Source: Oxalobacteraceae bacterium
Lineage (GTDB): Bacteria > Pseudomonadota > Gammaproteobacteria > Burkholderiales > Burkholderiaceae_D
Direction of reading: 5' to 3'
Assembly (NCBI GenBank): GCA_021151485.1
Contig: JAGKXB010000025.1
Span: forward strand, 1-31,475
DNA: 31,475 nucleotides
The translations under genes were made by a program, and so were the position numbers. Below, one piece after another: positions 577 to 18,413 of the stretch. The notes beneath the pieces are model-generated. The model saw nothing but the letters and a program-made list of their open reading frames with translations, had not been told where the DNA came from and ran no database searches. The stretch's first letter is position 1, and the number at the start of each line of letters is the position of its first letter.

Positions 577-650
577 GCTTGGCGATTGAAAAGTGATACA
601 CCGATTTGAGAAGATGGCTGCTTTTTGAGGTGGCCTTGATTACAAACGAG

Positions 651-1419: not shown

Positions 1420-2198
<779 letters not shown>

Positions 2199-2225
2199 AA
2201 AACACGTATACAAAAATGAACGGGG

Positions 2226-2252
2226 TGTATCAATTTTAAATCGCTGTTGACA
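2226..2252 (-). repeat. IS21 right terminal inverted repeat
   Basis: Reads TGTATCAATTTTAAATCGC then TGTTGACA on the plus strand; its reverse complement matches the left end at 550-576. It lies 27 bases after the istB stop. The sequence immediately outside (TTGCTG) does not repeat the sequence outside the left end (GTCTG), so the target duplication is gone or the junction has been rearranged. Confidence 0.82.
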
Positions 2253-2518
2253 TTGCTGATCAACCTAGTCAATTGTGGGTAGCGGATATGACGTATGTGC
2301 CGACATGGGCGGGCTTTCTTTACCTGGCTCTGGTGACAGATGTGTTCAGCCGCAAAGTGGTCGGTTGGGCTTTTGATGACAGAATGACCAGTGATTTGGT
2401 ATTGAGTGCGTTAAACATGGCATTGCTGACCAGAAAACCAGCGTCAGTGATTCATCATTCTGATCAAGGCAGCCAATACCTTTATTTTTTCTCTGTCCAT
2501 TTCATCTACCTATTTTGA
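2253..2518 (+). pseudogene. IS3-type transposase OrfB fragment, plus strand
   Basis: An open stretch on the plus strand encodes the start of an rve integrase core: PSQLWVADMTYVPTWAGFL (first catalytic Asp), YLALVTDVFSRKVVGWAF, and SVIHHSDQGSQY (second catalytic Asp). It lacks the N-terminal third and stops being recognisable right after GSQY at about 2487, where AT-rich sequence follows; the catalytic Glu is missing. It abuts the IS21 right end exactly and points opposite to the surrounding IS3 element, so it comes from a different IS3-family insertion that was later cut. Not functional. Confidence 0.82.
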
Positions 2519-3082: not shown

Positions 3083-3772
3083 TTAAAACGATTGACACAC
3101 AGTGTAGTTAGCAGTATCGACATAAGACGTTGCCAGTGCTGTGGCAACTTTTACGGAATTTGCTAAACCTGCTCCTGTTTGTGCCGATGAATATACGCTT
3201 CCGGTGTTAGGGATGCCGTCATCCATCGCAATATCAAGCTGCCGTGCCAGTTTTCCTGGAATTGCACTACTGCAAATCACATGCAAGCCTGAAGTCGTTG
3301 TTGGTGTTGTTGGATGCAGGGTGTTCGAATTAGAGGTAATCCCCAAATAACCACCAACAGCATTTTTCGCTTGTCCAGAAGTGTAAGCACCAGTTGCTAA
3401 TTCTGCCAATCTAACGTGTTGCCAGAATAAGGAGGATTTGTTGGTTGCAACAGGAGTGGCAGCACCGGTCCAGTCAACATTGTCAATCAATCCATTGCCA
3501 GCATTCACTGTACTGACAGTCGCGCCTGTTGGCAAATGATTGGCAACATCAGCATCATCACCTGGAACGGCTTTAAATTTGTCAACATAGGCGTTGTACA
3601 TGGTTTGTACAGATTGAAATTCACCTTGCAGGGCTTTGACTTTTGCACTGTCGACCAATGCTTGTCCCTTTAGTACACCACCCAACAACAATCCAATAAT
3701 CACTAAAACAATGGCAATTTCTACCAATGTGAAGCCGGAATGACGGGTAGAAAGTTTGCGGTGCATTAACAT
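3083..3772 (-). CDS. Major type IV pilin-like protein (prepilin)
   Basis: A 229-residue prepilin. The leader ends RHSG|FTLVE: Gly13 at -1, Phe at +1 and Glu18 at +5, followed by a hydrophobic alpha-1 helix (IAIVLVIIGLLLGGVLKG), the signature cleaved and N-methylated by PilD-type peptidases. Two C-terminal cysteines (HVICSS and YTVCQSF at the very end) could close the disulfide D-region usual in pilins. I chose ATG 3772 over the upstream TTG because GGAG lies seven bases before it. It is the last gene of the minus-strand cluster, 72 bases after the histidine kinase, and directly precedes a strong terminator, which suits a highly expressed structural subunit. MSHA-type or T2SS-like major (pseudo)pilin is the best call; the exact subfamily is unknown. 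Confidence 0.85.
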   Translation of the reverse strand: MLMHRKLSTRHSGFTLVEIAIVLVIIGLLLGGVLKGQALVDSAKVKALQGEFQSVQTMYNAYVDKFKAVPGDDADVANHLPTGATVSTVNAGNGLIDNVDWTGAATPVATNKSSLFWQHVRLAELATGAYTSGQAKNAVGGYLGITSNSNTLHPTTPTTTSGLHVICSSAIPGKLARQLDIAMDDGIPNTGSVYSSAQTGAGLANSVKVATALATSYVDTANYTVCQSF

Positions 3773-3803
3773 AATATTCTCCAAAAGTTTTAAACCTGAC
3801 TTG

Positions 3804-3809
3804 AGTATA
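3804..3809 (-). promoter_or_regulatory. Possible -10 box for separate pilin transcription
   Basis: The minus strand reads TATACT about 32 bases before the pilin start codon, a 5/6 match to a sigma-70 -10 box. No good -35 box lies at the normal distance, so an activator (perhaps the adjacent response regulator) would be needed. Weak evidence; the gap between kinase and pilin is the only one in this end of the cluster with room for a promoter. Confidence 0.25.
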
Positions 3810-3844
3810 AGCTCAGAAAATTAAAACTAGGGAGTAAAAAAGTT

Positions 3845-4945
3845 TTACACAGGAAACATTTTGGGTTTGGGGAGGGTGATGAAGAAGATGATTTCTTGCT
3901 CACGTGCATCCGCAGTTAGATCGCCTCCTGCTTCGCGTAAGCTATTTCTGGCCTGATAAAGTCCTAGGCCTAATCCACCGGGGCGGCTGCTAGCGTATGG
4001 CTCAAAAAGTTTCTCCGGTGAAAATTTTGTTGTGCTTGGTAAACGTGGCATGTTAATTTTGACGATGATATGTGGTGATTGAGGTTGGTGCATTACATCA
4101 ATCATCAAAGAGAGTTCGGGGCGCGTACGCAACATTGGCGCCACATTGGCGAACATATTGTCTAGCGCGCGATCGAGTAAGTCGGGTCGAATGAAAATCT
4201 CTGCTTCGCCGTTGATGGTAACGCCAATTCCGGCTAATTCGGCAGCGTGACAAATCGCATGTTTGATATGCAGTCTTTGTGGTTCTGGCGTGTCATTGTT
4301 GTGGGCGGCAGCCAGAATACGTTCGGCACGTGCTGCTGCATGAGATGCGCTGATAGTCATGCGCTTTGCGATCGCCAACAAGGCCTCTTCATCTTGGCTG
4401 GAGGATAAATCTGCGGCAATCCACATGACCCATTGCGCCAAATTACGTAAATCATGCTGCAAATACAGCGTCAATCGTGCTTGTTCAGCCAATGCTGCGG
4501 ATAAAACGACGACTTTGAGATGAATTGCCGCATCAATTTGTAGTTGAAACACTGCAGCAAGATGTTCTGCAAATAAGCGCGCTTCACCACGGTTTGCTTT
4601 GGGGTAGAGTTGAAAAGTCAAATGAATATCGTCATTCGCTGTAATTTCAAAACAAAAAGGCGCGTTGCCTTCTTGCCGCTTACCAAAAATTTGGTTGACT
4701 GGCAATCCGAACCAATTTCCCACACAGACGAGTTCTGCGATACCACCTTTGGATAGTGCGGGCCAGGCTGCTGCGGGTAAATCTAATGGGTTAGGATCAA
4801 TGGCAGCGTCGCCAGAGGAGCGTAGTGCGGTTAATGCTTGGCGATGCCGTCTGGCCAGTTTAGTTAAACGCCATAGCGCAGCCATTAAGGTAAGGCCAGC
4901 AACAACAAAAATGAGGACGAGACTAGCGGCTATGTTGGATCCCAT
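3845..4945 (-). CDS. Sensor histidine kinase of the pilus cluster, G1 box degenerate
   Basis: A 366-residue protein with one N-terminal membrane helix (about residues 5-25), a poorly conserved middle part, a phospho-acceptor motif LQHDLRN (His164), an N-box LDRALDNMF (Asn263) and a G2 box PGGLGLGLY (about 322-330). The usual DxGxG G1 motif between N and G2 boxes is replaced by KINMPRLP. The gene probably starts at ATG 4945 (MGSNIAAS), which overlaps the response-regulator end by 23 bases; an upstream in-frame extension would give an unlikely 95-base overlap and no membrane-targeted N-terminus. The overlap with the response regulator indicates translational coupling and a cognate pair. It resembles PrsK-type kinases only in general form; signal unknown. 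Confidence 0.8.
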   Translation of the reverse strand: MGSNIAASLVLIFVVAGLTLMAALWRLTKLARRHRQALTALRSSGDAAIDPNPLDLPAAAWPALSKGGIAELVCVGNWFGLPVNQIFGKRQEGNAPFCFEITANDDIHLTFQLYPKANRGEARLFAEHLAAVFQLQIDAAIHLKVVVLSAALAEQARLTLYLQHDLRNLAQWVMWIAADLSSSQDEEALLAIAKRMTISASHAAARAERILAAAHNNDTPEPQRLHIKHAICHAAELAGIGVTINGEAEIFIRPDLLDRALDNMFANVAPMLRTRPELSLMIDVMHQPQSPHIIVKINMPRLPSTTKFSPEKLFEPYASSRPGGLGLGLYQARNSLREAGGDLTADAREQEIIFFITLPKPKMFPV

Positions 4946-5516
4946 ATTTCTTAATGTAGTAGTACAAATGTTCGCGTGCCAATCCCAATCGTTTCGCAGC
5001 TTCAGTGACATTGCCACAGGCTGAGCTGAGCGTACTACGGACTAATTGTTCTTCGATTGCAGCAGAGGCTTCTTTGGGACCATCGGCTAGTTTGACGGTA
5101 ATTTGTATTCTTGTCTCTCCCACAATATGAAGTTTTTCTTCTTGGCGTAAAAATAGCTGAGCACGTTGTAGGGCTATTTTGATGGCATTAAGCGGCACGG
5201 GTTTGGTAAGAAAGTCGAAAGCCCCGTGACGTATTGCTTCGTAAGCGGCAGATTCTTCTTTTTGTCCGGTTAGAACGATGATTTTGCTATTTGGTGCACG
5301 CGTTATTAATGCATCAATCAGTAATAATCCTTCGCTTATACGACTAGTTGCGGGAGGAAGACCAAGGTCTAGTAGGATCAGAGCTGGTTGCGGTGTAATA
5401 ACCAGCGCTTCTTGACGTGAATGTGCGCATATCGTTTGATAGCCTTCCGACTCTAGTGCACTGGCTAAATAAATTGAGAGCGCAGGATCATCTTCGATGA
5501 TTAAGAGAGTGTTCAT
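4923..5516 (-). CDS. Response regulator, receiver plus Fis-type HTH
   Basis: A 197-residue regulator. The receiver domain (1-~120) has the acidic pair E8/D9-D10, phospho-acceptor Asp50 in LILLDLGLP, the Thr of IVLTG and Lys of FLTKPVP. The C-terminus (about 160-193) is a Fis-type helix-turn-helix, SACGNVTEAAKRLGLAREHL. There is no sigma-54 AAA+ domain between them, so it is an NtrC-like output without the ATPase, comparable in layout to RegA/PrrA- or PrsR-like regulators. Its start overlaps the pseudopilin stop by one base (TAATG) and its end overlaps the kinase start, so the three genes are probably co-translated. Likely DNA-binding control of the pilin or pilus operon; target not shown. Confidence 0.87.
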   Translation of the reverse strand: MNTLLIIEDDPALSIYLASALESEGYQTICAHSRQEALVITPQPALILLDLGLPPATSRISEGLLLIDALITRAPNSKIIVLTGQKEESAAYEAIRHGAFDFLTKPVPLNAIKIALQRAQLFLRQEEKLHIVGETRIQITVKLADGPKEASAAIEEQLVRSTLSSACGNVTEAAKRLGLAREHLYYYIKKYGIQHSR

Positions 5517-6247
5517 TATGGCAACTTACCTGCTTGGATCATGCGATTAAACAAGATATTAGGAGACAGCCAAATGACTTGATCATCGAACTCTCCTCCA
5601 GGATTTGCTGTACCAGCTTTGGATGGAGAGTGGCTGACAAATATGGCGTTATTATTTACATTCGCTTTTTCGTCTTTGCTGGTTGCAGCTTTGGATGCAT
5701 TTTTGCCTAATGAAAACACCACGGCAACCGCATTACTTGTGAGGGTTTGCGCTGTTCCACAATTAGTGCTTGTTATGCCTATAGAACTATTGCAAACATA
5801 CAAATCCGAAGCAAGTGTGCTGGTGATGGCGGTTGTCGCCGCATTGGTATTGTTTGCTTTGGTAACAGCATAACGAATGCGGTTGGCCTTTAATTGCCAA
5901 CCGTCTCTTAAATATCCTTGGTCATCAACACCTGACAGGCCAAGCGTCACGGCAGGGAGATAGCCATTTTTGTAAGCGTTGGTGCAAACACCTCCACCCA
6001 CTGGGCTTTCTATACCATTTGATGTGCTGGATGCTGGGCAGGGTAGTCGCCCATTGGTTGCTGCATAGCCAATTAATGCATCGCGTGCTTCATTTAGTAG
6101 GGTTTCTGTTTCTTGTATCCGTTGTACTTCCTGACGGCTGGCAACCACGCCCAACCCACCGCCAAGCAATAATCCAGCAATTAACAATACGATGGCCATT
6201 TCGACCAAAGAAAAACCTTGATATTGGTGGCATGTGTAATGTTTCAT
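5516..6247 (-). CDS. Pseudopilin / minor pilin with LPCP motif
   Basis: A 243-residue prepilin-like protein. Leader MKHYTCHQYQG|FSLVE (Gly11 at -1, Phe12 at +1, Glu16 at +5) is followed by a hydrophobic helix (MAIVLLIAGLLLGGGLG). The mature part has EARDALIGYAATNGRLPCPA after the helix and, near the end, QVIWLSPNILFNRM. The same two motifs occur in the PilX-like protein at 7211-8197, suggesting an assembled pair. Besides the leader cysteine there are four cysteines that could form two disulfides in the periplasm. Gap to the upstream Ig-like gene is 55 bases; the stop overlaps the response-regulator start. Likely a minor subunit for pilus priming or tip assembly. Confidence 0.83.
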   Translation of the reverse strand: MKHYTCHQYQGFSLVEMAIVLLIAGLLLGGGLGVVASRQEVQRIQETETLLNEARDALIGYAATNGRLPCPASSTSNGIESPVGGGVCTNAYKNGYLPAVTLGLSGVDDQGYLRDGWQLKANRIRYAVTKANNTNAATTAITSTLASDLYVCNSSIGITSTNCGTAQTLTSNAVAVVFSLGKNASKAATSKDEKANVNNNAIFVSHSPSKAGTANPGGEFDDQVIWLSPNILFNRMIQAGKLP

Positions 6248-6302
6248 GACGATGTTTACTTGTGAAATGAGTGAGGGTAATGAGTGAAATTAAAAAGCCA
6301 AT

Positions 6303-7160
6303 TTAGGGAACAGGTGTTGGTGGCGTTGAAATACAACGCACCATGTCTGCGCTAGGCGCGGTATAGCTAAACCCTGGCGTTGCTCCGGTGCCGGAGTATG
6401 CGCCGCCATTCGGAAAAAGGCTGGCATTACCATCTTCAAGATAATTGGTTGCATTACTGGTGTCTGTGCTGCTGATCCTGGTTTGGTTGTTTGTGCGACT
6501 ACCACCGAAGAATAGAGCGGCATAACAAGGTTGGCCATTCCATGAGGCGGTGGGATTATATGTTTTTGTTGAGTTCACTGTGATGTTGATTGCGTTCGAA
6601 ATAATTGAACCCGGATAAGTACTACCTATACTCACTAGTGCTTTGATGGTGTATGTTCCACCTTTTACATTTTGCCAACTCATAGCGCAGACGTTGAAGC
6701 CGGATGTACAACCACCAATTCTCGTGTTGCCGCTATAAAAACTGATCGAATTAATGGTAGAAGTGGTTGCGGTTGTTGTCGCAATGAGTGTGATGTTGGC
6801 CGGGGATTTATAGCTAGCATTGTTGGTTGGGGTAATGATTGTAATGGTTGGTTCTGTGCCCCACGTATAACTTCCCCAACCTTTGCTGTGACAATGTGGT
6901 GGCCTTCCACAATAGACCATTGTGCCGGAAGGTAAGATACGACTAACGATGTTGTTGGTGAGACTTAGCATGCACGTTGCTACGACATTGTCATGATATT
7001 TGCTGCGGTTATTTGTGCTTATGTCTTTCGCCGCTATTTCTCCAGGTTGGTTGCATCCCTTTTTGGCAGCGTCTTCTACGGATGTGTGATCATACGCCCA
7101 GACAGATTGATTTACCTGGATGAGCGTGACGAGAGCCATCATCCAAACCCATAGAAGCAT
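6303..7160 (-). CDS. Exported Cys-rich protein with Ig-like domain
   Basis: A 285-residue protein I do not recognise as a named family. The first ~22 residues form a signal peptide (MLLWVWMMALVTLIQ, then SVWA as a likely cleavage site). A segment at about 105-195 (ITIITPTNNASYKSPANIT, then NSISFYSGNTRIGG and YTIKALV) is typical of bacterial Ig-like (Big) domains in surface proteins. The mature chain has eight cysteines, an even number that suits disulfide bonding outside the cytoplasm, and is rich in Thr, Asn and Ser. A clear AAGGAG lies six bases before the ATG. It sits between two minor-pilin genes in the assembly operon. Inference: pilus-tip or surface adhesin, or a secreted cargo of the system. 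Confidence 0.72.
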   Translation of the reverse strand: MLLWVWMMALVTLIQVNQSVWAYDHTSVEDAAKKGCNQPGEIAAKDISTNNRSKYHDNVVATCMLSLTNNIVSRILPSGTMVYCGRPPHCHSKGWGSYTWGTEPTITIITPTNNASYKSPANITLIATTTATTSTINSISFYSGNTRIGGCTSGFNVCAMSWQNVKGGTYTIKALVSIGSTYPGSIISNAINITVNSTKTYNPTASWNGQPCYAALFFGGSRTNNQTRISSTDTSNATNYLEDGNASLFPNGGAYSGTGATPGFSYTAPSADMVRCISTPPTPVP

Positions 7161-7210
7161 GAGATTCTCCTTGTTTTACTATTTTTGTTGTTTATTGGGT
7201 TGTGTAATTC

Positions 7211-8197
7211 TCAATTAACCACTGTCTCTATAGTTTGTGTGTACAGCAATTGATCTTTCCAATTGGTATACACATTTATTTGTTTAGTACTCCAAGTCGA
7301 CACAGGACACAAACTAGCGATGTTATCCATTCCTTTATTGCCAGACGCTGTGATCCATCCAGCAGAAAATGCTGGGTCTGATGATTTGGTTTGTCGACAA
7401 GTGGTGAGATTATCCAGCATGGTATTGATATCATTTTTAAAAGCATCGCGTTTGGTAATACGTGAAAATAAATCGTTTGATGTAATCCACAATGCGCGAT
7501 CATTGTTAATGCTGTTGGTGTCATGAATGCCATTGTGGCTATTGTTATAAAGACTTTCTGGCGTCGAAATAACGAAAGTCGTATTGCCGGTGCCAAGACT
7601 GCCGCTATTTTCTAAAAAATTACTGACGGTATTATTGGCGGTTGTATTCCCGCCGCACTCACTGCCGGCAAGCGTATTACGGGATTGGCCTTTAACCATG
7701 CTGCCCGGGGAAAAAATGATGGCCCAGGGGGTATTGTGATTGCCAGCACTAGCAAGTGTTGATCCATCCACGTTTTTGATTTCAAATTGGCCGATGGTGT
7801 CCCAGTTTAAAACAGTAGTTTTGGGATTTTCTTTGGCCCGTCCTGAGACGGCATACCATAAGCATGTTCCAGATCCATCGCGTAAAGGCGGCATCCCCAG
7901 GGTTTTCCAGGGTAAGTGTCCAATAACCGATACGTTTTGGGTGCCACAGGATGTTTCTGCGATGCCATCGTTGTCACTATCTGGACAGGGTAAATAACCA
8001 AATACATCGTTTGGATTTCTATCCTGATACGTGGCGGCATAACCGATTAGCGCTTCTTTGGCTTGCATGAGCGTACTTGTCGTCACTTTGTCGCGTGCCG
8101 CACGATTATTGTTGAGAAATTTGAGCGCAGCGAATCCACTCATGGTAACGGCAATCACCAGCATGATAAGCAGCGCACCGCCTTGTTGCTTTTTCAT
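7211..8197 (-). CDS. PilX/GspK-like minor pilin
   Basis: A 328-residue protein with a short basic leader and MKKQQGG|ALLIMLVIAVTMSGF, lacking Glu at +5, as in PilX- and GspK-type atypical pilins. After the helix it carries QAKEALIGYAATY and YLPCPDSDNDGI, and later DRALWITSNDLFSRI, both shared with the pseudopilin at 5516-6247 (see that entry). It is longer at the C-terminus and has several cysteines in the second half. Its ATG overlaps the MshK-like stop by four bases (ATGA), so translation is coupled. A role at the pilus tip complex or in priming assembly is inferred from PilX/GspK behaviour. Confidence 0.78.
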   Translation of the reverse strand: MKKQQGGALLIMLVIAVTMSGFAALKFLNNNRAARDKVTTSTLMQAKEALIGYAATYQDRNPNDVFGYLPCPDSDNDGIAETSCGTQNVSVIGHLPWKTLGMPPLRDGSGTCLWYAVSGRAKENPKTTVLNWDTIGQFEIKNVDGSTLASAGNHNTPWAIIFSPGSMVKGQSRNTLAGSECGGNTTANNTVSNFLENSGSLGTGNTTFVISTPESLYNNSHNGIHDTNSINNDRALWITSNDLFSRITKRDAFKNDINTMLDNLTTCRQTKSSDPAFSAGWITASGNKGMDNIASLCPVSTWSTKQINVYTNWKDQLLYTQTIETVVN

Positions 8198-8634
8198 TTA
8201 ACTTTGATGGCGTTGGTAGGGAGTCTTTTGTTGCGCTCACCCGAAACTGTGTCTAACGTTTCGCCGACTTGCACGGGTTTTCCGTCGATAGTGACGTGAT
8301 CATTGATGATGCGTATAGTCGGCTGATTTCCTTGTATGGCTGAAGTAGCCGACTTTGTTGCGTTGATCTCTTTATTGTTAATCCAGGCGATATTTTTACC
8401 GTCTTCACGCTTAATAAAACCCGTGATGGTGTAGCGCTGGGTATTGGCCAAATTGTTGGCAAATTGATTATTGCCATTGCGTGCAGATACCAATGCTGCG
8501 CGTTCTGCGGGAGAAAAGAAAATGGTATCAAGTGGTGGTGATGCGGCCACCATGTTGGTATGAATGAATAACAAGGACAAAACTAAACATGGCATTGGCT
8601 TAGGTATGTGTGCGGGTATATGCGTAGTGTGCAT
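8194..8634 (-). CDS. mshK: MshK-like periplasmic pilus/secretion protein
   Basis: A 146-residue protein with an N-terminal hydrophobic export signal (MPCLVLSLLFIHTNMVAAS) and a small periplasmic domain: FSPAERAALVSARNG, then YTITGFIKREDGKNIAWIN and HVTIDGKPVQVGETLD. The pattern of a repeated short beta-strand unit with a DGK/GE turn is that of MshK / GspB / PilP-like accessory proteins that bridge the inner-membrane assembly to the secretin. AAGGA stands eight bases before the ATG; a second Met at residue 14 could be the start. Position after the PilO-like gene matches mshK in MSHA operons. Sequence conservation in this family is low, so the symbol is by analogy. Confidence 0.66.
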   Translation of the reverse strand: MHTTHIPAHIPKPMPCLVLSLLFIHTNMVAASPPLDTIFFSPAERAALVSARNGNNQFANNLANTQRYTITGFIKREDGKNIAWINNKEINATKSATSAIQGNQPTIRIINDHVTIDGKPVQVGETLDTVSGERNKRLPTNAIKVK

Positions 8635-8678
8635 ATTGATTATCCTTATTAGCCTTAACTTTTGAGTTTCTTAATTTT

Positions 8679-9263
8679 TCAATTCTTCGATTGAAGAGAA
8701 AATAACCTTAAAGCACATTTAATTTCTAATTTTGTTGTGCTGTTGAGTGTCATGTCGCATTGATTAACACGGAAAGGTGCGTTCCAGCTGGTATTTAACT
8801 TATGCACAAATGACAAAAATTCCTCTTCGTGTAAATCGGATAACTCTATGCTTAATTCATGACGCAGTACATTTGCCTGGGATCCTTGTGGTGTGCTACC
8901 AGATTCTGACAGTGGTCGCGGTGTTTCTAGAGAGTAGCGCAATGTTAAAGGTAGTTTTAAATCACGATACAGTGTTTCAAATTGCTCAACCCAGTTGGCT
9001 CGATTAGGGTTGCCAACCAAGCCTATAGTGATCAAATGATCGAATTCTGCCTGATGGTTCTTGAGCATATTCAAGTTATCAGTCAGTGTTCGTGTTTCAG
9101 TTTGTTTGGTTTGTACAGTCGCTTCTGTTTCTGCCAACGCCTCTTCCCGGGCTGTATTGTAGTGAAGTAAAGCGACAATCAATCCGATGGATAGCAGACT
9201 CGTCAGTGCAAATAAAACCAGCGCATTCTTCGCTAATTTAAGCAATGGTAAATATTTTTTCAT
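8679..9263 (-). CDS. mshJ: PilO/MshJ-like inner-membrane protein
   Basis: A 194-residue bitopic protein: short cytoplasmic tail, one membrane helix (NALVLFALTSLLSIGLIVALL, about 13-33; quoted only in part here as ALVLFALTSLLSIGLIVA), a periplasmic coiled-coil (about 35-75, heptads with ETEATVQTKQTETRTLTDNL) and a C-terminal alpha/beta domain. This is the architecture of PilO, GspM and MshJ, which pair with PilN/GspL-like partners to build the alignment complex between platform and secretin. It follows the PilM/N-like gene after only six bases. Two cysteines near the end (NQCDM and IKCAL) could form a disulfide. Confidence 0.76.
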   Translation of the reverse strand: MKKYLPLLKLAKNALVLFALTSLLSIGLIVALLHYNTAREEALAETEATVQTKQTETRTLTDNLNMLKNHQAEFDHLITIGLVGNPNRANWVEQFETLYRDLKLPLTLRYSLETPRPLSESGSTPQGSQANVLRHELSIELSDLHEEEFLSFVHKLNTSWNAPFRVNQCDMTLNSTTKLEIKCALRLFSLQSKN

Positions 9264-9269
9264 GATGGT

Positions 9270-10715
9270 TTATTTTTGCTGGCCATTCATTTTTGGTAAC
9301 GTTTTCCAGGGAACGCTTACGCACCAGCGATCTTCTATCTGCGGATTTTCATTGATGGAGCCTCCTTTAATCGCTGCATTACGTGCACTTGCTTCGGGGT
9401 CTTGCAGCAACTTGATGCCCGGGGTGCGCGTGAGTGCCGTCGAAATGCGTTCTCGTGCATCGGTTCTTGCCTGAGAAGAAAGGGTATTGGGTAACAAAAT
9501 CGTGAGTTGCAATAAAGCGGTGCGTTTAGTCGTGGTTGCAGCAGTTTGGGCGGCATTGGATTGGGTATTTTGCGTATTGTTTTTGCAAAGACTATCTTTT
9601 CCTGGGGCCACATAAAAAGAAAGTGTTTTAACACGTGCCTCGGGCAAATCAGCAATCGCGCTAGCCGCTAGTCGCAGAAAATCTTCGGGGGCGGGAGCTG
9701 CATCAATTTCATCAGATTTAAATTGTATGGCGCGGCGTATGAGTTCTGGATCGGTTTTTGATTGTGTAAGACGTGATGAAAGCTGTTGATTTTCACGTGA
9801 TGCTTTTTGCAATTTTGTTTGCAAACCTTGCTCTTGCCCTTGTTGGTCTAACAGGGTTTGAATGCCGTCTTGCCCATATATGCCTGCAGCTAACAAACTC
9901 GCCAATGCACCAGCGTAAGCGGCACGCTGAATATTCCTGACCAGGTAAGAAGTGCGTACAGGAATTGGTGCCAGTTGCGCAATGGGAGAGGTAATCAGGT
10001 GATCAAATAAGGGGTATAGCCCATCCGTCTTATTCTTACGCAGAAATACTTTGGGTACGGGTAGTAAGGTCAATCCGGCGTTGCTCAGGGGTGTTTCGAC
10101 CAAAGTTTGGTCACCTAAAAATAAAACCGGAGGAGCATGCCCACGCTCAAAAATATGCTGATTTTCAATATACAAACGCGTGATGAGAATTTCGCTAGCT
10201 GGACTGCTTTCCTCGGTATTCACGCAACGTGTCAGTATGGGGACCTTATCCTTAACAACCAAAATACGTAATTCATGCTTGTTAGGCAATGCGATGAGTA
10301 CGTCCGGCGTTTTCAAAGATTTGGACAGCATGACTAGCAAACTTGTTATTCCCCATACGCCGGCAATCGGTGTAGAAATAGACGCTAGCAAAGGGGCAAT
10401 CTCTTTACTTGTCGTTAAGCCAGTCAGTACTAATTTATTCGTTTTGTTGGCACCGGCTTTGCGTATGCTTTTAATTGGATAAGCCGCACGGTAAGTACTT
10501 TCTGTATAGGTGTTGGCGAGTCGTCGTTCTATGTACAGATTTTTGTCATTGCCAGATAAGTGTGGCAGATCAATTGCTTCTAAGGATTCTTCGGGCAGAT
10601 TAACCAGCACCCATAGTGTTCCTTTATTGGAGGGCGTTGTTGTCGGTTTCCATTCCGTGGTTGTTTTTTCAAAATAATGGCTACCGAGGGTGTCAATCAG
10701 AAGAACAGTTTTCAT
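9270..10715 (-). CDS. mshI: GspL/PilM-PilN-like (MshI-type) inner-membrane protein
   Basis: A 481-residue protein. The N-terminal ~260 residues look like the actin-like cytoplasmic fold of PilM/GspL (starts MKTVLLIDTLGSHYF; segments WVLVNLPEESLEAIDLP, TPDVLIALPNKHELRILVV). One membrane helix follows (about 268-285, AAYAGALASLLAAGIYG), then a coiled-coil (GQEQGLQTKLQKASRENQQL) and a periplasmic ferredoxin-like part. It thus joins the roles of separate PilM and PilN proteins, as in MshI and GspL. It would connect the assembly ATPase in the cytoplasm with the PilO-like partner encoded next. One base separates it from the platform gene. Conservation to named families is weak; placed mainly by architecture and order. 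Confidence 0.7.
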   Translation of the reverse strand: MKTVLLIDTLGSHYFEKTTTEWKPTTTPSNKGTLWVLVNLPEESLEAIDLPHLSGNDKNLYIERRLANTYTESTYRAAYPIKSIRKAGANKTNKLVLTGLTTSKEIAPLLASISTPIAGVWGITSLLVMLSKSLKTPDVLIALPNKHELRILVVKDKVPILTRCVNTEESSPASEILITRLYIENQHIFERGHAPPVLFLGDQTLVETPLSNAGLTLLPVPKVFLRKNKTDGLYPLFDHLITSPIAQLAPIPVRTSYLVRNIQRAAYAGALASLLAAGIYGQDGIQTLLDQQGQEQGLQTKLQKASRENQQLSSRLTQSKTDPELIRRAIQFKSDEIDAAPAPEDFLRLAASAIADLPEARVKTLSFYVAPGKDSLCKNNTQNTQSNAAQTAATTTKRTALLQLTILLPNTLSSQARTDARERISTALTRTPGIKLLQDPEASARNAAIKGGSINENPQIEDRWCVSVPWKTLPKMNGQQK

Positions 10716-10716
10716 G

Positions 10717-11916
10717 TCAAAGTTTTATTTTGCTGATAGTGTCGTAAATTGGCCCAAGCACAGCCAGCATAATCCAGCCCAGAATCACACCAAGTACCAC
10801 AGTTAGAATCGGTTCTATCATGGCTTGGACACGGGCAATGGATTCATTAATATCTCGGTTATAAAAATAGGCAATATTTTTCAGCGCACCATCTAAATCT
10901 CCTGTCTCTTCGCCGATTTTTAACATGCGTATGACTAGAGATGGAAACAGACCTTGTGCGGCAAATCCCATGGTTACGGAGGAGCCATCGTTGATGCTTT
11001 TATACGCTTCATCGATTGCTTTTCTAATGACCAAATTAGTCGATGCACCACGGCAATAAGCAATTCCATCAAGCAAAGGAATGCCGCTGCGATAAGTTAG
11101 ACCTAAGGTATCGCAAATACGCGCCAGAATAATTTTCTTGGTAACAGGTCCAAGTGCAGGGAAGCGTAATGCAACGTCATGCAATATAAATTTGAAACGA
11201 GGATTAAATTTCGCACCCAACCATACGAAAAGAATGAGGGTTGGGGGGGTGAGTAGTATCAACCACCAGTAGTCAACGCAGAAACCAGAAACCCAGATCA
11301 ACACAACCGTTTGTATCGGTATTTCCTGCCCCATATTGGCAATAAATTTGACAATTTGCGGAACGATAAAAATCATCAAAAATAAAACCACTGCACTGAT
11401 GATAATCGTGACAAAAGTGGGATAAATGAGTAATTGCTTGGTTTTGGCCGCCAGTTCGTCTTGCCATTTTAAAGAGCGGCAAATTTCTTGCATCACACTT
11501 GGCAATTGTCCGATTGCTTCACCAATTCGGACGAGATTAATCACCAATTCTGGAAAAACATCTGGGTTGCTAGCAAAGGCTTCTGACATGCTAGAACCAG
11601 TGTCAATTTTTTCATGCAGTTGTCCGCATAGTTCACGCATCTCCGGTGTATCGCCGGAGTTGCGTAGATCGGCAAGAATAGACAGGACTGAAACACCAGC
11701 GCGTAGCAACATTTCGATTTGGCTCAAAAAGTTAATGAGCTCACGTCGTGACATTTTACGTATCGTGCGTGCTTTGCTTTTTAATTCGTCTGCTTGAATT
11801 AATTCAAGATGGGTTTTTTTAAGTTGAGCATCTAAGTCAAATTCATTCAGCGCTTCCAGTTCGCCTTTGATGATTTTGTTTTGTGCATTAACCGCGCGAT
11901 AACGATACAGTGCCAT
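10717..11916 (-). CDS. mshG: Type IV pilus / T2SS platform protein (PilC/GspF/MshG)
   Basis: A 399-residue polytopic inner-membrane protein with two T2SSF domains. The start MALYRYRAVNAQNKIIKGE is the classic GspF/PilC N-terminus. Domain 1 covers about 67-190 (REL INFLSQIEMLLRAGVSV) with helices around 170-190 and 215-240; domain 2 covers about 270-392 (ICDTLGLTYRSGIPLLDGI, then GEETGDLDGALKNIAYFYN) with a final helix near the C-terminus. The platform protein sits under the growing pilus and is turned by the assembly ATPase encoded just upstream (41-base gap). Length and motifs are normal for the family. Confidence 0.93.
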   Translation of the reverse strand: MALYRYRAVNAQNKIIKGELEALNEFDLDAQLKKTHLELIQADELKSKARTIRKMSRRELINFLSQIEMLLRAGVSVLSILADLRNSGDTPEMRELCGQLHEKIDTGSSMSEAFASNPDVFPELVINLVRIGEAIGQLPSVMQEICRSLKWQDELAAKTKQLLIYPTFVTIIISAVVLFLMIFIVPQIVKFIANMGQEIPIQTVVLIWVSGFCVDYWWLILLTPPTLILFVWLGAKFNPRFKFILHDVALRFPALGPVTKKIILARICDTLGLTYRSGIPLLDGIAYCRGASTNLVIRKAIDEAYKSINDGSSVTMGFAAQGLFPSLVIRMLKIGEETGDLDGALKNIAYFYNRDINESIARVQAMIEPILTVVLGVILGWIMLAVLGPIYDTISKIKL

Positions 11917-11957
11917 TAGCTCATTCCATTCGTATCAATTCTGAATTGATTTCCTGA

Positions 11958-13697
11958 CTAGCCTTTGAGTCGCTCGGTTAAGTCAACAACGCGTCCGACT
12001 TCTTCCAAAGTAGATAGTCCATTGAGTACGCATCGAATCCCATCTTCTACAATCGGAACAAAACCACGGGAGATTGCATAATCAGTCATTTCTTGAATGC
12101 TCGCACTGCGAGCGACCAATTCATCTAGACCAGTGTCAAAGCGTAAAATTTCCATAATCGCTAACCGTCCTTTGTATCCACGATTGCCACAAGCTGGACA
12201 GCCAATTGCTTTGAAAATAGTGCGCTCATCATTGGGTTGTAGGCCCAATACCCTGCGTTCTTGGTCGTTCGGGGTGTGAATTTCTTTGCATTTTTGACAT
12301 AGTTTGCGAACCAGTCGTTGAGCAATGATGCCAATAATGTTGCCGGACAAAATACTGGGTTTGACACCTAAATCCATTAAACGAGGAACGGAGCGGATTG
12401 CTGAATTGGTATGCAAAGAAGAAAACACCTGATGGCCAGTCATGGCGGAGCGTACAGCCATTTCCGCCGTTTCTTGATCACGAATTTCGCCTACGAAAAT
12501 GATATCGGGGTCTTGCCGCATCAGTGAGCGAATACCGCTGGAAAAATCCAATTTCTGTGCAACGGCAACGGAGGTTTGTCGGATCATTGGTAGCGGATAT
12601 TCCACTGGATCTTCCAACGTCATGATATTGACGCCGACATCGTTTAAGTGATTTAGTACGGAATAGAGCGTGGTTGTTTTCCCAGAGCCAGTTGGGCCTG
12701 TTACGAGAAGGATGCCATCTGGTCTTTCTAGCATTAACTTCAAAAGAGAAAGTTGGAAGTCTGGCAGGCCCAAATTATCTAAGGGAACGACGCTCAGTTT
12801 GCGATCAAGAATCCGGAAAACAAAATTTTCGCCATGTATCGTTGGTTGCGAGGCAGCACGGAAATCAATTTGACGTCCAAATAAAGTCAGCGAGATGCGA
12901 CCATCTTGTGGTGCTCGCGTTTCCGCGATATTCATAGAGGCCAAAATCTTGAGGCGCACCAGCATCGCAGTCCAATTTGCTTTGGTAAAAGAGCGAATTT
13001 CTCGTAATACGCCGTCGATACGGTAACGAATACGCAAAAAATGCTCTTCCGGTTCAAGATGGATGTCGGACGCACCACGACTTACTGCATCTGCCAACAC
13101 GGCATCGACTAAACGAACGATAGGGTGGCTATAGGACGCACCTGCTTGGGTCAGGGCGATCAGATCAAGCTCGCCACTTTCTAACTCGAGCAAGATTCCT
13201 TCAATCGACAATTCACGATCATAAAAACGATCAATTGCTGCGAGTACTTCCGCTCTTGGCGTAATGTGCCATAAAGGCCGAATGCGTTGCCCAGACTGTG
13301 ATCCTGCGCGCGCCAGGAGTGCAGCAATTGCATCACGTGCCACGATATCGTCTGGGTTGGCCGTGGCGATCAGTAAACTGCCTTTTTCACTGTTAAAACT
13401 GACGGGAAACAAAGTATGTTTGAGCGCAACGGATTTGGGAATCAATTCCAACGCGACCGCATCGGCAATTGCTGCTGAAATATCAACTGATTCGTATCCT
13501 ACGGTTTCCGATACGGCCTCGCGCATCGCATCTTCAGTGATGAAGCCTAAATCCAGCAGCATTTCACCTAGGGGTTTGCCCAGTTTCTTTTGCTGCTGTA
13601 GTGCAATACTTAATTGGTCTTGACTGATATAGCCGCGTTCGATTAATACATCGCCAAGACGCTTTTTAGTCGGTTGAGTAGTGTTTATCCCAGTCAT
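11958..13697 (-). CDS. mshE: Pilus/T2SS assembly ATPase, MshE type with c-di-GMP-binding N-domain
   Basis: A 579-residue GspE/PilB-family ATPase. Residues 13-36 (RLGDVLIERGYISQDQLSIA..) and 42-65 (PLGEMLLDLGFITEDAMREA..) form two 24-residue MshEN motifs separated by five residues, the arrangement that binds c-di-GMP in MshE. The motor domain has Walker A GPTGSGKT (334-341), Asp box LEDPVEYP, Walker B DIIFVGEIRD (Glu404) and His box SSLHTNSA. A tetracysteine zinc site is formed by C467, C470, C500 and C503. It powers pilin extraction and polymerisation at the inner membrane. Its start overlaps the TPR gene's end by four bases (ATGA). Normal length; no sign of damage. Confidence 0.93.
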   Translation of the reverse strand: MTGINTTQPTKKRLGDVLIERGYISQDQLSIALQQQKKLGKPLGEMLLDLGFITEDAMREAVSETVGYESVDISAAIADAVALELIPKSVALKHTLFPVSFNSEKGSLLIATANPDDIVARDAIAALLARAGSQSGQRIRPLWHITPRAEVLAAIDRFYDRELSIEGILLELESGELDLIALTQAGASYSHPIVRLVDAVLADAVSRGASDIHLEPEEHFLRIRYRIDGVLREIRSFTKANWTAMLVRLKILASMNIAETRAPQDGRISLTLFGRQIDFRAASQPTIHGENFVFRILDRKLSVVPLDNLGLPDFQLSLLKLMLERPDGILLVTGPTGSGKTTTLYSVLNHLNDVGVNIMTLEDPVEYPLPMIRQTSVAVAQKLDFSSGIRSLMRQDPDIIFVGEIRDQETAEMAVRSAMTGHQVFSSLHTNSAIRSVPRLMDLGVKPSILSGNIIGIIAQRLVRKLCQKCKEIHTPNDQERRVLGLQPNDERTIFKAIGCPACGNRGYKGRLAIMEILRFDTGLDELVARSASIQEMTDYAISRGFVPIVEDGIRCVLNGLSTLEEVGRVVDLTERLKG

Positions 13698-15046
13698 GGT
13701 GATCCAGTATTATTTCCAGGATTATTTAATACATATTTGCGTAATTCTTGGACACGTTGTCTTATCGCACCGCGATTGATCGTGTTGTCTGTTGGCTTAC
13801 TTAATTGGATTGCTTTTTCATAAGATAAGATGGCCGCACTGGATTTGCCTAGGTGATCTAATGCTACCGCCAGATTGTAGGTGTAAAGCGCATGATCTGG
13901 TGCCAAATTAGCTGCTCGGAAGAAAGCTTGTTGTGCTTCACTCCAGCGTTTTTGACGTGCTAATAAATTACCCAACGCATAGTGTAGTTCGGGTGACGTT
14001 TGTTTTAATTCCAATGCTTGTTTTAAATGGCCTTCTGCGGCGACAGGGTCTGTTGCTGCCGACAAACTCAGTAAACCGGCTGTGGCGTTAGAATTTTCAG
14101 GGTCTTCACGCAATACTTGTTGATACAGGTCGAGTGCGCGTGATGTTTGTGATTTGCGATGCGCAATAATCGCCAAACCAAGTAATGCGTCTTTTTCGTG
14201 TGGGCGCTTATTCAGTACAGAGATATATTTGCGCTCTGACTCATCTAATTTTCCTTCGGTTAGTGCAGCATAAGCTTCTTTTAGTGGGTCAGCGTTTGTG
14301 CTGGTGGTTAATGCAATTGCTGGGCTGACTATATTGGTTTTTGGCGCAACTTTTGCTTTGGATGATGGCATAACCGATGCCATAGAAATCGCAGATGCCG
14401 TAGAGATGTCGTCGCTAGTTTTGTGCAACGTATTTTCTTGTTTGACATTCGGTTGCTTAACGTTATGTTTATTTTTACTGATTACGGGATGTGGGTTGGT
14501 GACGCTGTCGGGAGTGCCGACTATGGCGCTGTTTTTTGTCGTGGATGCAGGTGTTTTTGTGCCAGCCTCTTTATTTACGGGGGGCTTGTGCATGTCAAGT
14601 ACAGCTGCTGAGACTGTATTTTGCTTGGACATATTGACTGGCACTGTTTTGGCGGGGGCGTGTGTAATCGTCGGCGTATGCACTTCGATCGTTTCATCTG
14701 CTGGCGTTTGTAAATAGAACCAGGTGCCGGCAAATGAAACCAATATGGCGACCAACAACAATGTGAGTAAAATCAAACGGTTACGTTGTGGTTGGGTTGT
14801 TGCAGAAAAAATGGCTTGAGCAGCACGTGCCCCTGCAGTATGTTGTTTAACGGAGGATGCGCCGTTTTTATCCGATGTTGTTTCAGATTGTCCAGTAGAT
14901 TGTCCAACAGATGTATTAAGAGATTCATCTGCAGTTTGGCTGGCAACCGGATTCATTGGATCAATAGTAAGCTCTTGCTTGACGTTGCTCACGTTGTCAG
15001 CATTGCTTTGTTGGGCATGTTTTAAGGCGTCAAATAGCAGGCTCAA
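13694..15046 (-). CDS. mshN: TPR-repeat membrane protein, MshN-like
   Basis: A 450-residue bitopic protein. It starts MSLLFDALKHAQQSNAD, the N-terminal pattern common to MshN/GspB-associated proteins, has one membrane helix at about 90-112 (LILLTLLLVAILVSFAGTWF) and a low-complexity Thr/Ser/Lys-rich periplasmic linker (about 115-250). The C-terminal part (about 255-440) holds at least four TPR units (AYAALTEGKLDESERKYISV; ALLGLAIIAHRKSQTSRALD; ELHYALGNLLARQKRWSEAQ; ALYTYNLAVALDHLGKSSAA). TPR proteins in these operons scaffold the machine and may help secretin placement. Starts 43 bases after the secretin stop and overlaps the ATPase gene. Confidence 0.84.
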   Translation of the reverse strand: MSLLFDALKHAQQSNADNVSNVKQELTIDPMNPVASQTADESLNTSVGQSTGQSETTSDKNGASSVKQHTAGARAAQAIFSATTQPQRNRLILLTLLLVAILVSFAGTWFYLQTPADETIEVHTPTITHAPAKTVPVNMSKQNTVSAAVLDMHKPPVNKEAGTKTPASTTKNSAIVGTPDSVTNPHPVISKNKHNVKQPNVKQENTLHKTSDDISTASAISMASVMPSSKAKVAPKTNIVSPAIALTTSTNADPLKEAYAALTEGKLDESERKYISVLNKRPHEKDALLGLAIIAHRKSQTSRALDLYQQVLREDPENSNATAGLLSLSAATDPVAAEGHLKQALELKQTSPELHYALGNLLARQKRWSEAQQAFFRAANLAPDHALYTYNLAVALDHLGKSSAAILSYEKAIQLSKPTDNTINRGAIRQRVQELRKYVLNNPGNNTGSP

Positions 15047-15089
15047 GGACGTTCTTCTTCGTGATGATTGATGATTGTGATGAGATTAA

Positions 15090-16829
15090 TTATTGCAACT
15101 CTGTACCAAGGGTTGTCTTAAATTGACGTAATACATCATATTGGCGTTCTTGGTCAAGAATAATTGGCCGTAGGAAAATGACTAATTCCGACTTGGTATT
15201 GGTGTCATCACGCCCTTTAAAAAACTCACCAATACCAGCTAGATTAGCAAGGCCGGGAATTTGGTTTGTCTTGCCTGAGCGCGAATCTTGCATCAATCCG
15301 CCAAGAACGGCGATTTCTCCGTTGCGCACGCGCAAAATGGATTCCATTTCGCGCGTTTGGATTTGTGGAATTAAGTTTGTGACATTGTTTTGTTTTAATA
15401 CAGGATTAGGGTCACTGACATAGTTGGTGATACGAGTAATGGTGGGCCGCATATTGAGCGTGACTTCATTATCGTTACTGATTTGTGGTGTCAGGTAGAG
15501 TAAAAAGCCAACGGGTACAGTATGTACGCTAGAGGTGTAGGTGGCGGGAGTTGCGGCCGTTGTTGCGGTAGCGGCAGTTCCAGGAGTGACGTCAATGGTA
15601 AAGTATACCGTTTCATCAACAACCTTGAGCAAGCTGGTTTGATTATTGAGGACGGAAAGTTTGGGGCTGGATAGTACGTGTAATTTACCAAATGTTTCTA
15701 GGAGTTTAATAGAGGCCGAGATGTCTACTTTGCCGCCCAATGCGCCTTGATAAAGATAACTGAGCGTGCCCATGACGCCGCTTGTGGTCGGTGATGTTTG
15801 TGTTGCACTGAATCCTTTTGTAGAACGTAAGATGGACCAATCTATACCCTGTTGATATTGATCAGATAAGCTGACTTCAACAATCGTTGCTTCAATCAAG
15901 ACTTGGCGCTTGGCATTTGCCATAATTTTGTTAAGAAACTCTTGTATGCTCAAATGCTGACGTGATGTTGCACGCACACTAATGATGCCAGTTTCCGGAT
16001 TGGCAATAATAGAGGCTGCTTCACGATAATTTGTTTTGCGTGTACTAGCACTGGATACTGGAGTTGTGGTGCCTTGAGTCGGTAGGGGGCTTGGTATATT
16101 AGAACTAGATCCCAAGGTTTTCAAAGCGGCCGTGACTTTATCCATGGATGATTCGGCGGCTGGTGTGATGGTCGAATCATTGTTGCTTTCAGGAATGACT
16201 TTGTCCGTTTCGCGCAATAAGTCTTTCAGATTTTCTACTAATGTTTTCCAAAAATAATTATTGGACTCGTTATCAATATTGGCAGTCGAAGTACTGCCAA
16301 CGCCAGTGCCAGCTACGCTGGCAGAGGTAGTGATGCTATTTTTTGATTTGCGCGCAATGTTGGGGTAGTCAATTTGATAACTTTTCAAGTAAGGCGTGTC
16401 TGGCATGATAGTGAGATTGCGGCCACGCAATTCATAACGCATGTCTATTTGTCGACCAACTGCATCTAAAATCTCAGGCAGGGTCCGATCAATTAAATTC
16501 ATGGTGACAGCGCCAGTGATATTAGGATGAATTTCAATGTTCAATTTTGCATCACGTGCAATCGCAAACAAAATATCTTGCGCTGGTACATTAATCACAA
16601 CCACGCTATAGCGCTCAGCTCCTTTGGAGGCGACTGGTGGCGGTGGCAAGGGGGCGGCCTCTGCTAAAGGAGGAGTAGTACTGGTAGGTGGATTTTTGGG
16701 TAATGCAATATGCATAGGGGATGGGGCGAATTTTTGAGGTAAATTGTTGCACCCACTCACTGCGCTGAGTATCCCGCATAGCACTATGCTTCGCATGAAT
16801 ATGAGGGAAGATGAAAATGGCTTATTCAT
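15090..16829 (-). CDS. mshL: Outer-membrane secretin lipoprotein, MshL/PilQ/GspD type
   Basis: A 579-residue secretin. From ATG 16829 the leader (IVLCGILSAVSGC) is a lipoprotein signal with lipobox SAVSGC and Cys27 as acylation site; an upstream in-frame start would bury this signal, so I prefer 16829. Domains in order: STN-like (about 95-155, ILFAIARDAKLNIEIHP), a Ser/Thr-rich linker, N1-type secretin repeat (about 275-330, SIQEFLNKIMANAKRQVLIE) and the C-terminal beta-barrel domain (about 390-565) with VPVGFLLYLTPQIS and GEIAVLGGLMQDSRS, ending ELVIFLRPIIL. It forms the gated ring in the outer membrane through which the pilus leaves. 75 bases downstream of the MshM-like gene. Confidence 0.92.
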   Translation of the reverse strand: MNKPFSSSLIFMRSIVLCGILSAVSGCNNLPQKFAPSPMHIALPKNPPTSTTPPLAEAAPLPPPPVASKGAERYSVVVINVPAQDILFAIARDAKLNIEIHPNITGAVTMNLIDRTLPEILDAVGRQIDMRYELRGRNLTIMPDTPYLKSYQIDYPNIARKSKNSITTSASVAGTGVGSTSTANIDNESNNYFWKTLVENLKDLLRETDKVIPESNNDSTITPAAESSMDKVTAALKTLGSSSNIPSPLPTQGTTTPVSSASTRKTNYREAASIIANPETGIISVRATSRQHLSIQEFLNKIMANAKRQVLIEATIVEVSLSDQYQQGIDWSILRSTKGFSATQTSPTTSGVMGTLSYLYQGALGGKVDISASIKLLETFGKLHVLSSPKLSVLNNQTSLLKVVDETVYFTIDVTPGTAATATTAATPATYTSSVHTVPVGFLLYLTPQISNDNEVTLNMRPTITRITNYVSDPNPVLKQNNVTNLIPQIQTREMESILRVRNGEIAVLGGLMQDSRSGKTNQIPGLANLAGIGEFFKGRDDTNTKSELVIFLRPIILDQERQYDVLRQFKTTLGTELQ

Positions 16830-16904
16830 TGACGGTAATAAATAGAGAGTATTTTTACTAAATTGAATAGATAAGAGTAAAGGTAATGAGACCAAATAAT
16901 TGCC

Positions 16905-18413
16905 CTACCGCAACTGCCATGGTACATCGCAAACTTCTTTCCAGCTACGAATAATAGGTTTGCCAATACGTGATTTTTCTGGCAAGGCGGCAATTGCTGC
17001 TTTCGTTGCATCTAGCGTAGGGTAGCTGCCGAAATAAATAGCAAGACGTGTTCTTTGTGGCTGCATTTGGATGCCGTAGGTAGAGCGTTTGATATATGTT
17101 TTTCCTGGTGGCAAACTTCTTTCTACTGCTGCAACCAGTTCTGTCGCATCCACATCGGCAGCGATGCGTATAGTGGCAACTTGGATGGTGTAGTGACCTA
17201 GTTTGGCTTGTTCTTGCGCGTATTGAAAGCTTTGTTTGATACGTTGATTAACGACGACATTGATATTTTTATTTTTGTTGGGCGTGGCTTTATTTTGATT
17301 GACGTTGTTTTTGTTGCTATTTTTGTCATCGTCGTCCATGTCATTATCATGATTTGCGGCGGTGGCTGTGGGTGTGATCGGCGATACAGATTTTATTGAT
17401 GCTATGGGCGTTACTGGCGCTGCAGAGATTGTTGCTGCTGTAATTGGCGCAGCTGGTTTGATTGGCGCTGCTGTTTTTTGTAAATAATTCGTCAGATAAG
17501 CTGCGCTTGCCGCACTCACCATCACAGCAGCGAGTAGGCTTAATAACCACTTGATGTTCGTTCTTGGTGTTGGTTCACCTGGTATTGATGTTGTTGAAAA
17601 GTTGGGCCCAAGATCTCGTATGGCAAGTTGCACATGTTTGAGTTTGACTTGTCTTTTTTGATCCGCATAAGCAGCAAGTAGTGCTTTATCGGCCAACAAA
17701 TTGATGCGTCGTGCCCGGCCTTTGGCATCATTCAACAAGCAGCGTTGCGCGCTCCACGAAAACATGCGGCCACCGCGCCATCCGGCGACTCGCAGTCTGT
17801 GTTCCAGATAGGCGATTGCATCTTCTTTTGATAGATTTTGTAAGTTCAGTCGATAAACCACACGGTCACGTACTTGTCGCAGGTGTGGCGCTTCTAGCAA
17901 TGTATTCAGTTCTGGTTGACCAAAAAGAACAATTTGAACCAGCTTGTGATTCCCCGTTTCCAGATTGGACAAACGTCTCACTTCCTCAATCGATTCTGCT
18001 GGCATGGTATGGGTTTCATCGATCAGAACGATGACTTGCCTACCTTGCATATGGCGCTTGAGTAATTCTTGCTGCAATACTTCTAGCAATGCACCTTGAG
18101 TGGTGACAGGAATGTTGATGCCTAAATCTCTGGCGATGACTTCAATGATTTCATCGCGCGAAAATGAGGGGTTGGGTAGATAAACGGTATCGACGTGATT
18201 GGGCAGGCGAGAAAGAAGAATGCGGCTCATCAATGTTTTGCCACAACCAACTTCGCCAATGACCAGCACGATTCCCTCTGCTTGCAAAGTCGCATGCATT
18301 AATCCTGTACTAAATACACCTTTGTCTTTGCCCTCAAAGAAGAAACTGGGATCTGGGGTAATAGAAAAAGGCGGTAATGTAAGGCCGAAATAATCAAGAT
18401 AGAGAGAAGACAT
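16905..18413 (-). CDS. mshM: MshM/ExeA-type AAA ATPase with C-terminal SPOR domain
   Basis: A 502-residue protein, first gene of the cluster. Residues 1-270 are an ExeA/MshM-like AAA ATPase: YFGLTLPPFSITPDP, Walker A GEVGCGKT (53-60), Walker B VIVLIDETH (D132/E133) and FGQPELN. A membrane helix lies at about 286-306, followed by an Ala/Pro/Thr stretch and a charged Asp/Asn/Lys-rich linker (345-385). Residues about 405-490 look like a SPOR domain: HYTIQVATIRIA, then RLAIYFGSYPTLDATKAAIA and a closing KPIIRSW. SPOR domains bind denuded glycan of septal peptidoglycan; ExeA normally carries another peptidoglycan-binding module. A GAGG motif three to four bases before ATG is the ribosome site. Role: peptidoglycan remodelling or positioning for secretin assembly. 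Confidence 0.84.
   Translation of the reverse strand: MSSLYLDYFGLTLPPFSITPDPSFFFEGKDKGVFSTGLMHATLQAEGIVLVIGEVGCGKTLMSRILLSRLPNHVDTVYLPNPSFSRDEIIEVIARDLGINIPVTTQGALLEVLQQELLKRHMQGRQVIVLIDETHTMPAESIEEVRRLSNLETGNHKLVQIVLFGQPELNTLLEAPHLRQVRDRVVYRLNLQNLSKEDAIAYLEHRLRVAGWRGGRMFSWSAQRCLLNDAKGRARRINLLADKALLAAYADQKRQVKLKHVQLAIRDLGPNFSTTSIPGEPTPRTNIKWLLSLLAAVMVSAASAAYLTNYLQKTAAPIKPAAPITAATISAAPVTPIASIKSVSPITPTATAANHDNDMDDDDKNSNKNNVNQNKATPNKNKNINVVVNQRIKQSFQYAQEQAKLGHYTIQVATIRIAADVDATELVAAVERSLPPGKTYIKRSTYGIQMQPQRTRLAIYFGSYPTLDATKAAIAALPEKSRIGKPIIRSWKEVCDVPWQLR

Follow-up and report, generated by a model that had tools for sequence, protein, structure and literature searches.

The window, i.e. the whole stretch of 31,475 nucleotides that was analysed, makes up all of contig C15 in a draft genome of 2.18 Mb. 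All 14 open reading frames between positions 3083 and 18413 were confirmed on the minus strand by the ORF listing and family searches, and the preliminary description of a 14-gene envelope machine held for both the genes and their families. They run in the order M-L-N-E-G-I-J-K-P-Q-A, where P, Q and A are letters coined in this analysis and not orthology calls to Vibrio mshP, mshQ and mshA. The response regulator (RR) and histidine kinase (HK) genes sit between the prepilin genes Q and A, as had been noticed beforehand. The features are as follows.

16905..18413, minus strand: M, an MshM-type AAA ATPase (PF13401; TIGR03015 at 203.9 bits, below its cut-off; homologues at the same position)
15090..16895, minus strand: L, a secretin of the MshL type (PF00263, TIGR02519)
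13694..15046, minus strand: N, an MshN-type TPR protein (TPR families of Pfam)
11958..13697, minus strand: E, an assembly ATPase with a predicted c-di-GMP-binding MshEN domain (PF00437, PF05157, NF053729; tree)
10717..11916, minus strand: G, an inner-membrane platform protein (PF00482)
9270..10715, minus strand: I, a predicted alignment-complex protein in the MshI position (position and homologues)
8679..9263, minus strand: J, a predicted alignment-complex protein in the MshJ position (position and homologues)
8194..8634, minus strand: K, a small predicted exported protein in the MshK position (position and homologues)
7211..8197, minus strand: P, a minor-pilin-like protein, shorter than its homologues (homologue comparison)
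6303..7160, minus strand: predicted exported protein with a Big_7 domain (PF17957; its residues 208-278 align with the C-terminal module found in long P proteins)
5516..6247, minus strand: Q, a prepilin (PF07963)
4923..5516, minus strand: RR, a receiver and a Fis-type HTH, no AAA+ domain (PF00072, PF02954 (HTH_8); family alignment)
3845..4945, minus strand: HK, a predicted N-terminal membrane helix, a small domain, a DHp domain with HDLRN, and a HATPase domain (ORF extends to GTG 5017)
3833..3849, minus strand: TGTAAAACTTTTTTACT, the predicted operator for RR, which overlaps the stop codon of HK (repeat matrix search)
3804..3809, minus strand: TATACT, a predicted -10 element at 40 bp from where the repeat starts
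3083..3772, minus strand: A, the predicted major prepilin (PF07963; start ATG 3772 chosen by position, ORF to TTG 3784)

Gene overlaps do exist but are fewer than was first thought, namely 4 bp for N/E, 4 bp for K/P, 1 bp for Q/RR and 23 bp for RR/HK (the last assuming ATG 4945 as the HK start), with the remaining intergenic gaps spanning 1-75 bp. Upstream, a phaM-type gene (NF043076; 18468-19253) diverges from M across 54 bp; further out lie rpoH, ftsX and an ftsY-type gene. The region downstream of A (window positions 100-2518) holds transposase remnants, among them an IstB-like ORF (1686-2198; PF01695), a fragment that is weakly integrase-like with all matches below cut-off (692-1228), and a minus-strand remnant judged by eye only (100-555).

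Among the machine genes, L lies at the cut-off of the MshL model TIGR02519 (250.2 bits), with 249.6 bits in the ORF run and, marginally above it, 252.5 bits in a second run. The MshEN domain of E is well supported, by PF05157 (44.8 bits, cut-off 23.1) and NF053729 (70.6 bits, cut-off 38). No family match above any cut-off was obtained for I, J and K; the genes at the same positions in four other genomes do align, in 4/4 for I and in 3/4 for both J and K. In the passages of Denise et al. (2019, PMC6668835) that deal with the MSH class, as in Vibrio and Pseudoalteromonas, the mandatory genes are mshA, E, G, L and M. Counterparts of mshL and mshE are present here, and candidate counterparts of mshA, mshG and mshM are seen through general families (prepilin, T2SSF and AAA). 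The sampled MSH class loci, which are not Vibrio sequences (L126-L128), are ordered L-M-(N)-E-G, as opposed to M-L-N-E-G-I-J-K in the window (N was not detected in L128); the tree places their MshE proteins in a different clade, and the embedded two-component system of the window sets it apart from such loci. Rearranged MSH clusters, compared with those of Pseudoalteromonas and Vibrio, are also mentioned, as data not shown, for two freshwater iron oxidisers in a 2013 genome paper (PMC3770913).

The locus itself contains neither a prepilin peptidase nor PilT. Part of the account in PMC6668835 indicates that MSH loci typically have no prepilin peptidase, so the lack of a peptidase and a retraction ATPase, correctly recorded in the preliminary description, is ordinary for MSH loci and does not distinguish this one. 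A search of the remaining genome for pilD and pilT, as had been proposed, returned a single Peptidase_A24 match, beside a PilB-type ATPase on contig C1, and two PilT/PilU-family ATPases on contig C87. With both functions encoded elsewhere, their absence was discarded as a hallmark of the locus.

Two prepilins, Q and A, score above the PF07963 cut-off, and the last gene, A, encodes a GFTLVE prepilin. The protein at 6303-7160 had been described as an extra Ig-like exported protein. Its ORF and Big_7 domain are indeed present, and it seems partly to be a detached C-terminal part of P: residues 208-278 correspond to the segment that directly follows the P-like part in six of the eight long P proteins compared (E 4e-5 or better), five of the eight having been picked since an earlier search had already matched them. 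The match was weak in L115 (0.002) and absent in L014. The P of the window therefore appears to be split, with the Ig-type domain on the second piece. In other loci, the space between Q and RR holds an ABC-2-permease-like gene (PF12698 below cut-off) and a conserved familyless protein of ~240 aa (L013 4852-6395, L014 13187-14666, L015 13107-14590, and other Oxalobacteraceae and Sulfuricella loci); this insert is absent in the window.

RR comprises 197 aa and consists of the receiver and the HTH only, with no sigma54-interacting AAA+ domain found. In HK, the kinase core is clear, while the match to the kinase family PF02518 is below cut-off. The small HK domain (residues ~46-160), predicted alone, reached a pLDDT of 93.6, and its best PDB match in Foldseek was DosP, at E 0.14. 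Regulators of the RegA/PrrA/ActR type are composed of a receiver and a Fis-type HTH without AAA+. RR has a like layout, but its score on NF033791 is 60.3 bits against a cut-off of 250, outside that family. PilS/PilR control pilA through sigma54; unlike that pair and PrsK/PrsR, the window system has an RR without AAA+ and no sigma54-type site before A. Similarity to the PEP-CTERM kinase PrsK extends over the kinase core (39.8 bits, cut-off 300; the model has 679 positions and HK 366 aa), and similarity to PrsR is seen in the receiver (108.8 bits, cut-off 502.6). PrsK-PrsR are treated together with RpoN-dependent PEP-CTERM genes in a passage of PMC9850573.

The same operon, with RR-HK ahead of the last prepilin, was found in four relatives among 148 genomes searched. 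Scanning genome contigs with the C-terminal part of RR yielded 262 stretches and 114 relatives, 80 being kept. The 80 were pooled with the window, the four relatives and the loci L104-L148; after removal of the duplicates L024, L031 and L060 (identical to L015, L014 and L016), the pool gave 94 RR loci. RR and HK are adjacent in 82 of the 94, and a prepilin gene follows by strict criteria in 64, a count in which many loci end at contig ends and the window itself missed the overlap limit used. The RR loci include ones from Oxalobacteraceae, Comamonadaceae, Rhodocyclaceae, Sulfuricella, Lysobacteraceae, Pseudohongiella, other Gammaproteobacteria and Desulfobulbaceae/Desulfocapsaceae. Syntrophaceae(-like) and Syntrophorhabdus loci have RR-HK-A with a different machine order, and those of Nitrospirota mostly have RR-HK without a recognised prepilin. 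Seven Nitrospirota loci, some from organisms named magnetotactic (L065, L072, L074, L076, L081, L086 and L089), carry RR-HK of the same family with no adjacent recognised prepilin. In one genome (G338), RR-HK-A-A and other prepilin-like genes lie on contig C13 (L104), apart from the machine genes on contig C12 (L107).

Since RR-HK-A is found again in Betaproteobacteria, Gammaproteobacteria, Desulfobulbaceae/Desulfocapsaceae and Syntrophaceae-like loci, RR-HK is no chance neighbour. The case in which the two-component system would be a local accident, absent in close relatives, was rejected, as the arrangement is found across many genera. RR-HK-A is nonetheless a minority form. RR occurs in 10 out of 274 genomes of the family (8 out of 44 genera), in 12 out of 300 genomes of the order, compared with 169 having an MshL-like secretin (E up to 1e-45), and in 4 out of 321 genomes of the class, compared with 160. 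The 12 matches in the order comprise five within an MSH locus (G000, G101, G518, G556 and G591), six outside and one protein of 479 aa. In the three class genomes apart from that of the window, RR is separated from the machine genes, beside prepilins on another contig in one and without prepilins in two. Among 70 fetched stretches that lack the compact RR, a hand-picked, non-random set in which L124 and L139 are one locus, 52 had machine genes of the subtype (E above 600 bits). Among the sequences compared, the machine order is not peculiar to the window, and the regulator type is the unusual part.

A repeat resembling TGTAAA-N7-TACA lies between HK and A; its consensus is TGTAAAAAAAnCnTACATC, in which GTA-A and AC are the most fixed positions. 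It was scored in 69 loci, which are related and hold 35 different 17-mers; 14 of the 83 RR-HK loci, having no recognised prepilin within 700 bp, were kept out of the statistics. Each locus was compared with dinucleotide shuffles of itself, using a matrix that left out the tested group; for the other groups, the full matrix had served to place the sites. The real score was reached by no more than 4 of 100 shuffles in 68 of the 69 loci, and by none in 60, the window included. The halves of the repeat are complementary at 4.65 of 8 positions, compared with 2.47 when one half is shuffled, a symmetry that is partly there by construction because the sites were first seeded by a symmetric pattern. 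In many loci, the repeat starts with the HK stop codon. Of the 69 loci, 55 have a -10-like hexamer (at least 4/6 matches to TATAAT, including A2 and T6) at a distance of 39-43 bp from the start of the repeat, as against 2-12 in other 5-bp bins. This places the repeat near -45, presumably where an activator would touch the sigma70 polymerase.

Among the 14 loci kept apart, a site of at least 14 bits was found near the HK end in five (L033, L048, L059, L077 and L101) and in none of the other nine. L104 has RR-HK-A and no repeat (score -1.5), and L105 and L106, with the same family code, have RR without the repeat. It was likewise not found upstream of M in the 18 loci inspected (best score 0.4), nor, at 14 bits or more, in the 30 fetched stretches L119-L148, all without the compact RR. 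In the genome of the window, the 18-mer occurs once exactly and twice with two mismatches. No pilin gene lies behind either of the mismatched copies in the stretches inspected, and one of them is ~5 kb from pilBCD. In L037, a second prepilin copy downstream (12290) has a full repeat of its own (24.9 bits). No sigma54-like site (-24/-12 promoter) of 9/11 or better was present in any of the 69 compact loci, window included. In searches of an open-access library, no listed title or abstract opening described this two-component system or the repeat.

Other Burkholderiales have the same machine order together with an NtrC/PrsR-type regulator (RR54, 437-536 aa) upstream of M, identified by family in L124 and L143 and elsewhere by a profile built from these two; in L140 it is seen only as an NtrC-type fragment within the stretch. 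In 15 stretches, a different kinase (HK54) follows Q on the opposite strand. These loci (RR54 ... Q-HK54-A) share the machine order and the pilin slot with the window and differ in the position of the regulator, in the opposite-strand kinase (558-585 aa in the three measured) and in having a sigma54-type site. Such a site, scoring 9-11/11 and located 64-92 bp before the prepilin motif, was found in 11 of the 12 loci with the A gene in view. In the twelfth (L185) the score is 8/11, which is not above shuffles (20/200 as good). Repeat scores were below zero in all 12. A further 11 A genes, in eight loci with neither two-component system in view, also had no repeat; in two of them there is a sigma54 match of 9/11, though it lies at 153-155 bp.

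Regulator and promoter type accordingly appear to change together between equivalent loci. The match is not statistically independent, since the MshE tree (122 rows, with a weak backbone) has at least three changes between regulator types but only one independent pair on well-supported branches, too few for significance, in a run where the promoter trait was set equal to the regulator type and which measures the number of independent comparisons only. The best reading of these sequences is that the compact system is interchangeable with the sigma54 system, the independent swaps being few. The receiver tree, of 80 rows and 128 columns, places the compact RRs (42 rows) and the RR54s of the loci (31 rows) each on one side of a branch, with SH-aLRT values of 93 and 99, respectively; they therefore look like two separate families. 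An origin of the compact RR within the locus, through AAA+ loss from a neighbouring sigma54 regulator, was rejected on account of these separate groups.

In another family of the order, six genomes have RR without MSH genes within the fetched stretch. In five of these, the next gene after RR encodes a spore-coat-U-like subunit, as judged by translation; Pfam confirmed SCPU in both cases tested and an usher in the single case tested. The repeat at these genes beat at least 198 of 200 single-base shuffles in L112, L113 and L114, while of the remaining two loci one was marginal (12/200 as high) and one had none (34/200). In the sixth genome (L109 10006-10911), the RR homologue has the palindromic repeat TGTCAAAACTTTTGACA (0/200 shuffles), and a phasin gene comes next in place of a pilin. 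The RR-SCPU-usher run of L113 ends in a 71 aa protein (5922-6137) with a HisKA-like domain only (19.7 bits, below cut-off), possibly a stripped-down phosphodonor for RR.

Taken together, we read the 14 genes as the locus of a predicted type IVa pilus of the MSHA type, where the compact two-component system likely switches on the likely major prepilin A through the conserved promoter repeat, and we give this a probability of about 0.72. It may instead be an ordinary MSHA locus with a passenger two-component system that regulates something else, as could be argued from the fact that most genomes with MshL-like secretins have no RR (12 versus 169 of 300, and 4 versus 160 of 321). That RR-HK-A adjacency is kept over distant groups, and that the repeat goes with RR, makes this decidedly improbable. 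We also regard it as improbable that the repeat is the site of another, global regulator (a CRP/Fnr- or LexA-like dimer) while the two-component system acts elsewhere. TGT-N11-ACA repeats are common among the sites of many dimeric regulators; against such a reading, the repeat is missing at A in the 12 sigma54-type loci and at the 11 A genes with neither system found, and a repeat-like site occurs at three of the five spore-coat-U-like genes adjoining an RR homologue.

A type II-like secretion apparatus with pseudopilins and no pilus, which was the other half of the initial proposal of a distinct, locally regulated pilus or secretion subtype, is very improbable. The core parts are homologous to those of the T2SS, and E scores high on the GspE and PilB models, yet it is below both cut-offs (479.7 bits on TIGR02533 GspE, cut-off 630.25). 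The MshL-type secretin, the MshEN domain and the predicted promoter of the prepilin itself speak against secretion, which is unlikely because a separate GspE-type ATPase, above its cut-off, is encoded on contig C65 and the last gene encodes a GFTLVE prepilin. What stands of the proposal is an MSHA subtype with a two-component system beside the pilin.

Under the pilus-switch reading, HK, with one predicted membrane helix and its sensing part presumably in the cytoplasm or membrane, would phosphorylate RR, dimers of which would bind the repeat ~45 bp upstream of the transcription start of A and recruit the sigma70 polymerase to this pilin gene. The machine genes would be expressed separately from A, E is predicted to need c-di-GMP for pilus assembly, and the functions of PilD and PilT/PilU would be supplied in trans. 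A wider reading, to which we would give even odds, is that RR represents an undescribed family of compact, AAA+-free response regulators serving as dedicated pilus switches. TGTAAA-N7-TACA and a sigma70 promoter would then accompany RR in different phyla and in two pilus classes that are unrelated (type IV and chaperone-usher-like), with repeated exchange against the sigma54 regulator in MSHA loci and the pilin promoter rebuilt each time.

For mostly environmental bacteria, the locus offers a sequence-level hypothesis, with a defined predicted operator, of how the expression of an MSHA-type pilin may be controlled. It also presents a natural experiment, in that similar pilus operons appear to shift jointly in regulator and promoter type (sigma54 or predicted sigma70), and through such paired operons the evolution of sigma-factor use would become directly testable.
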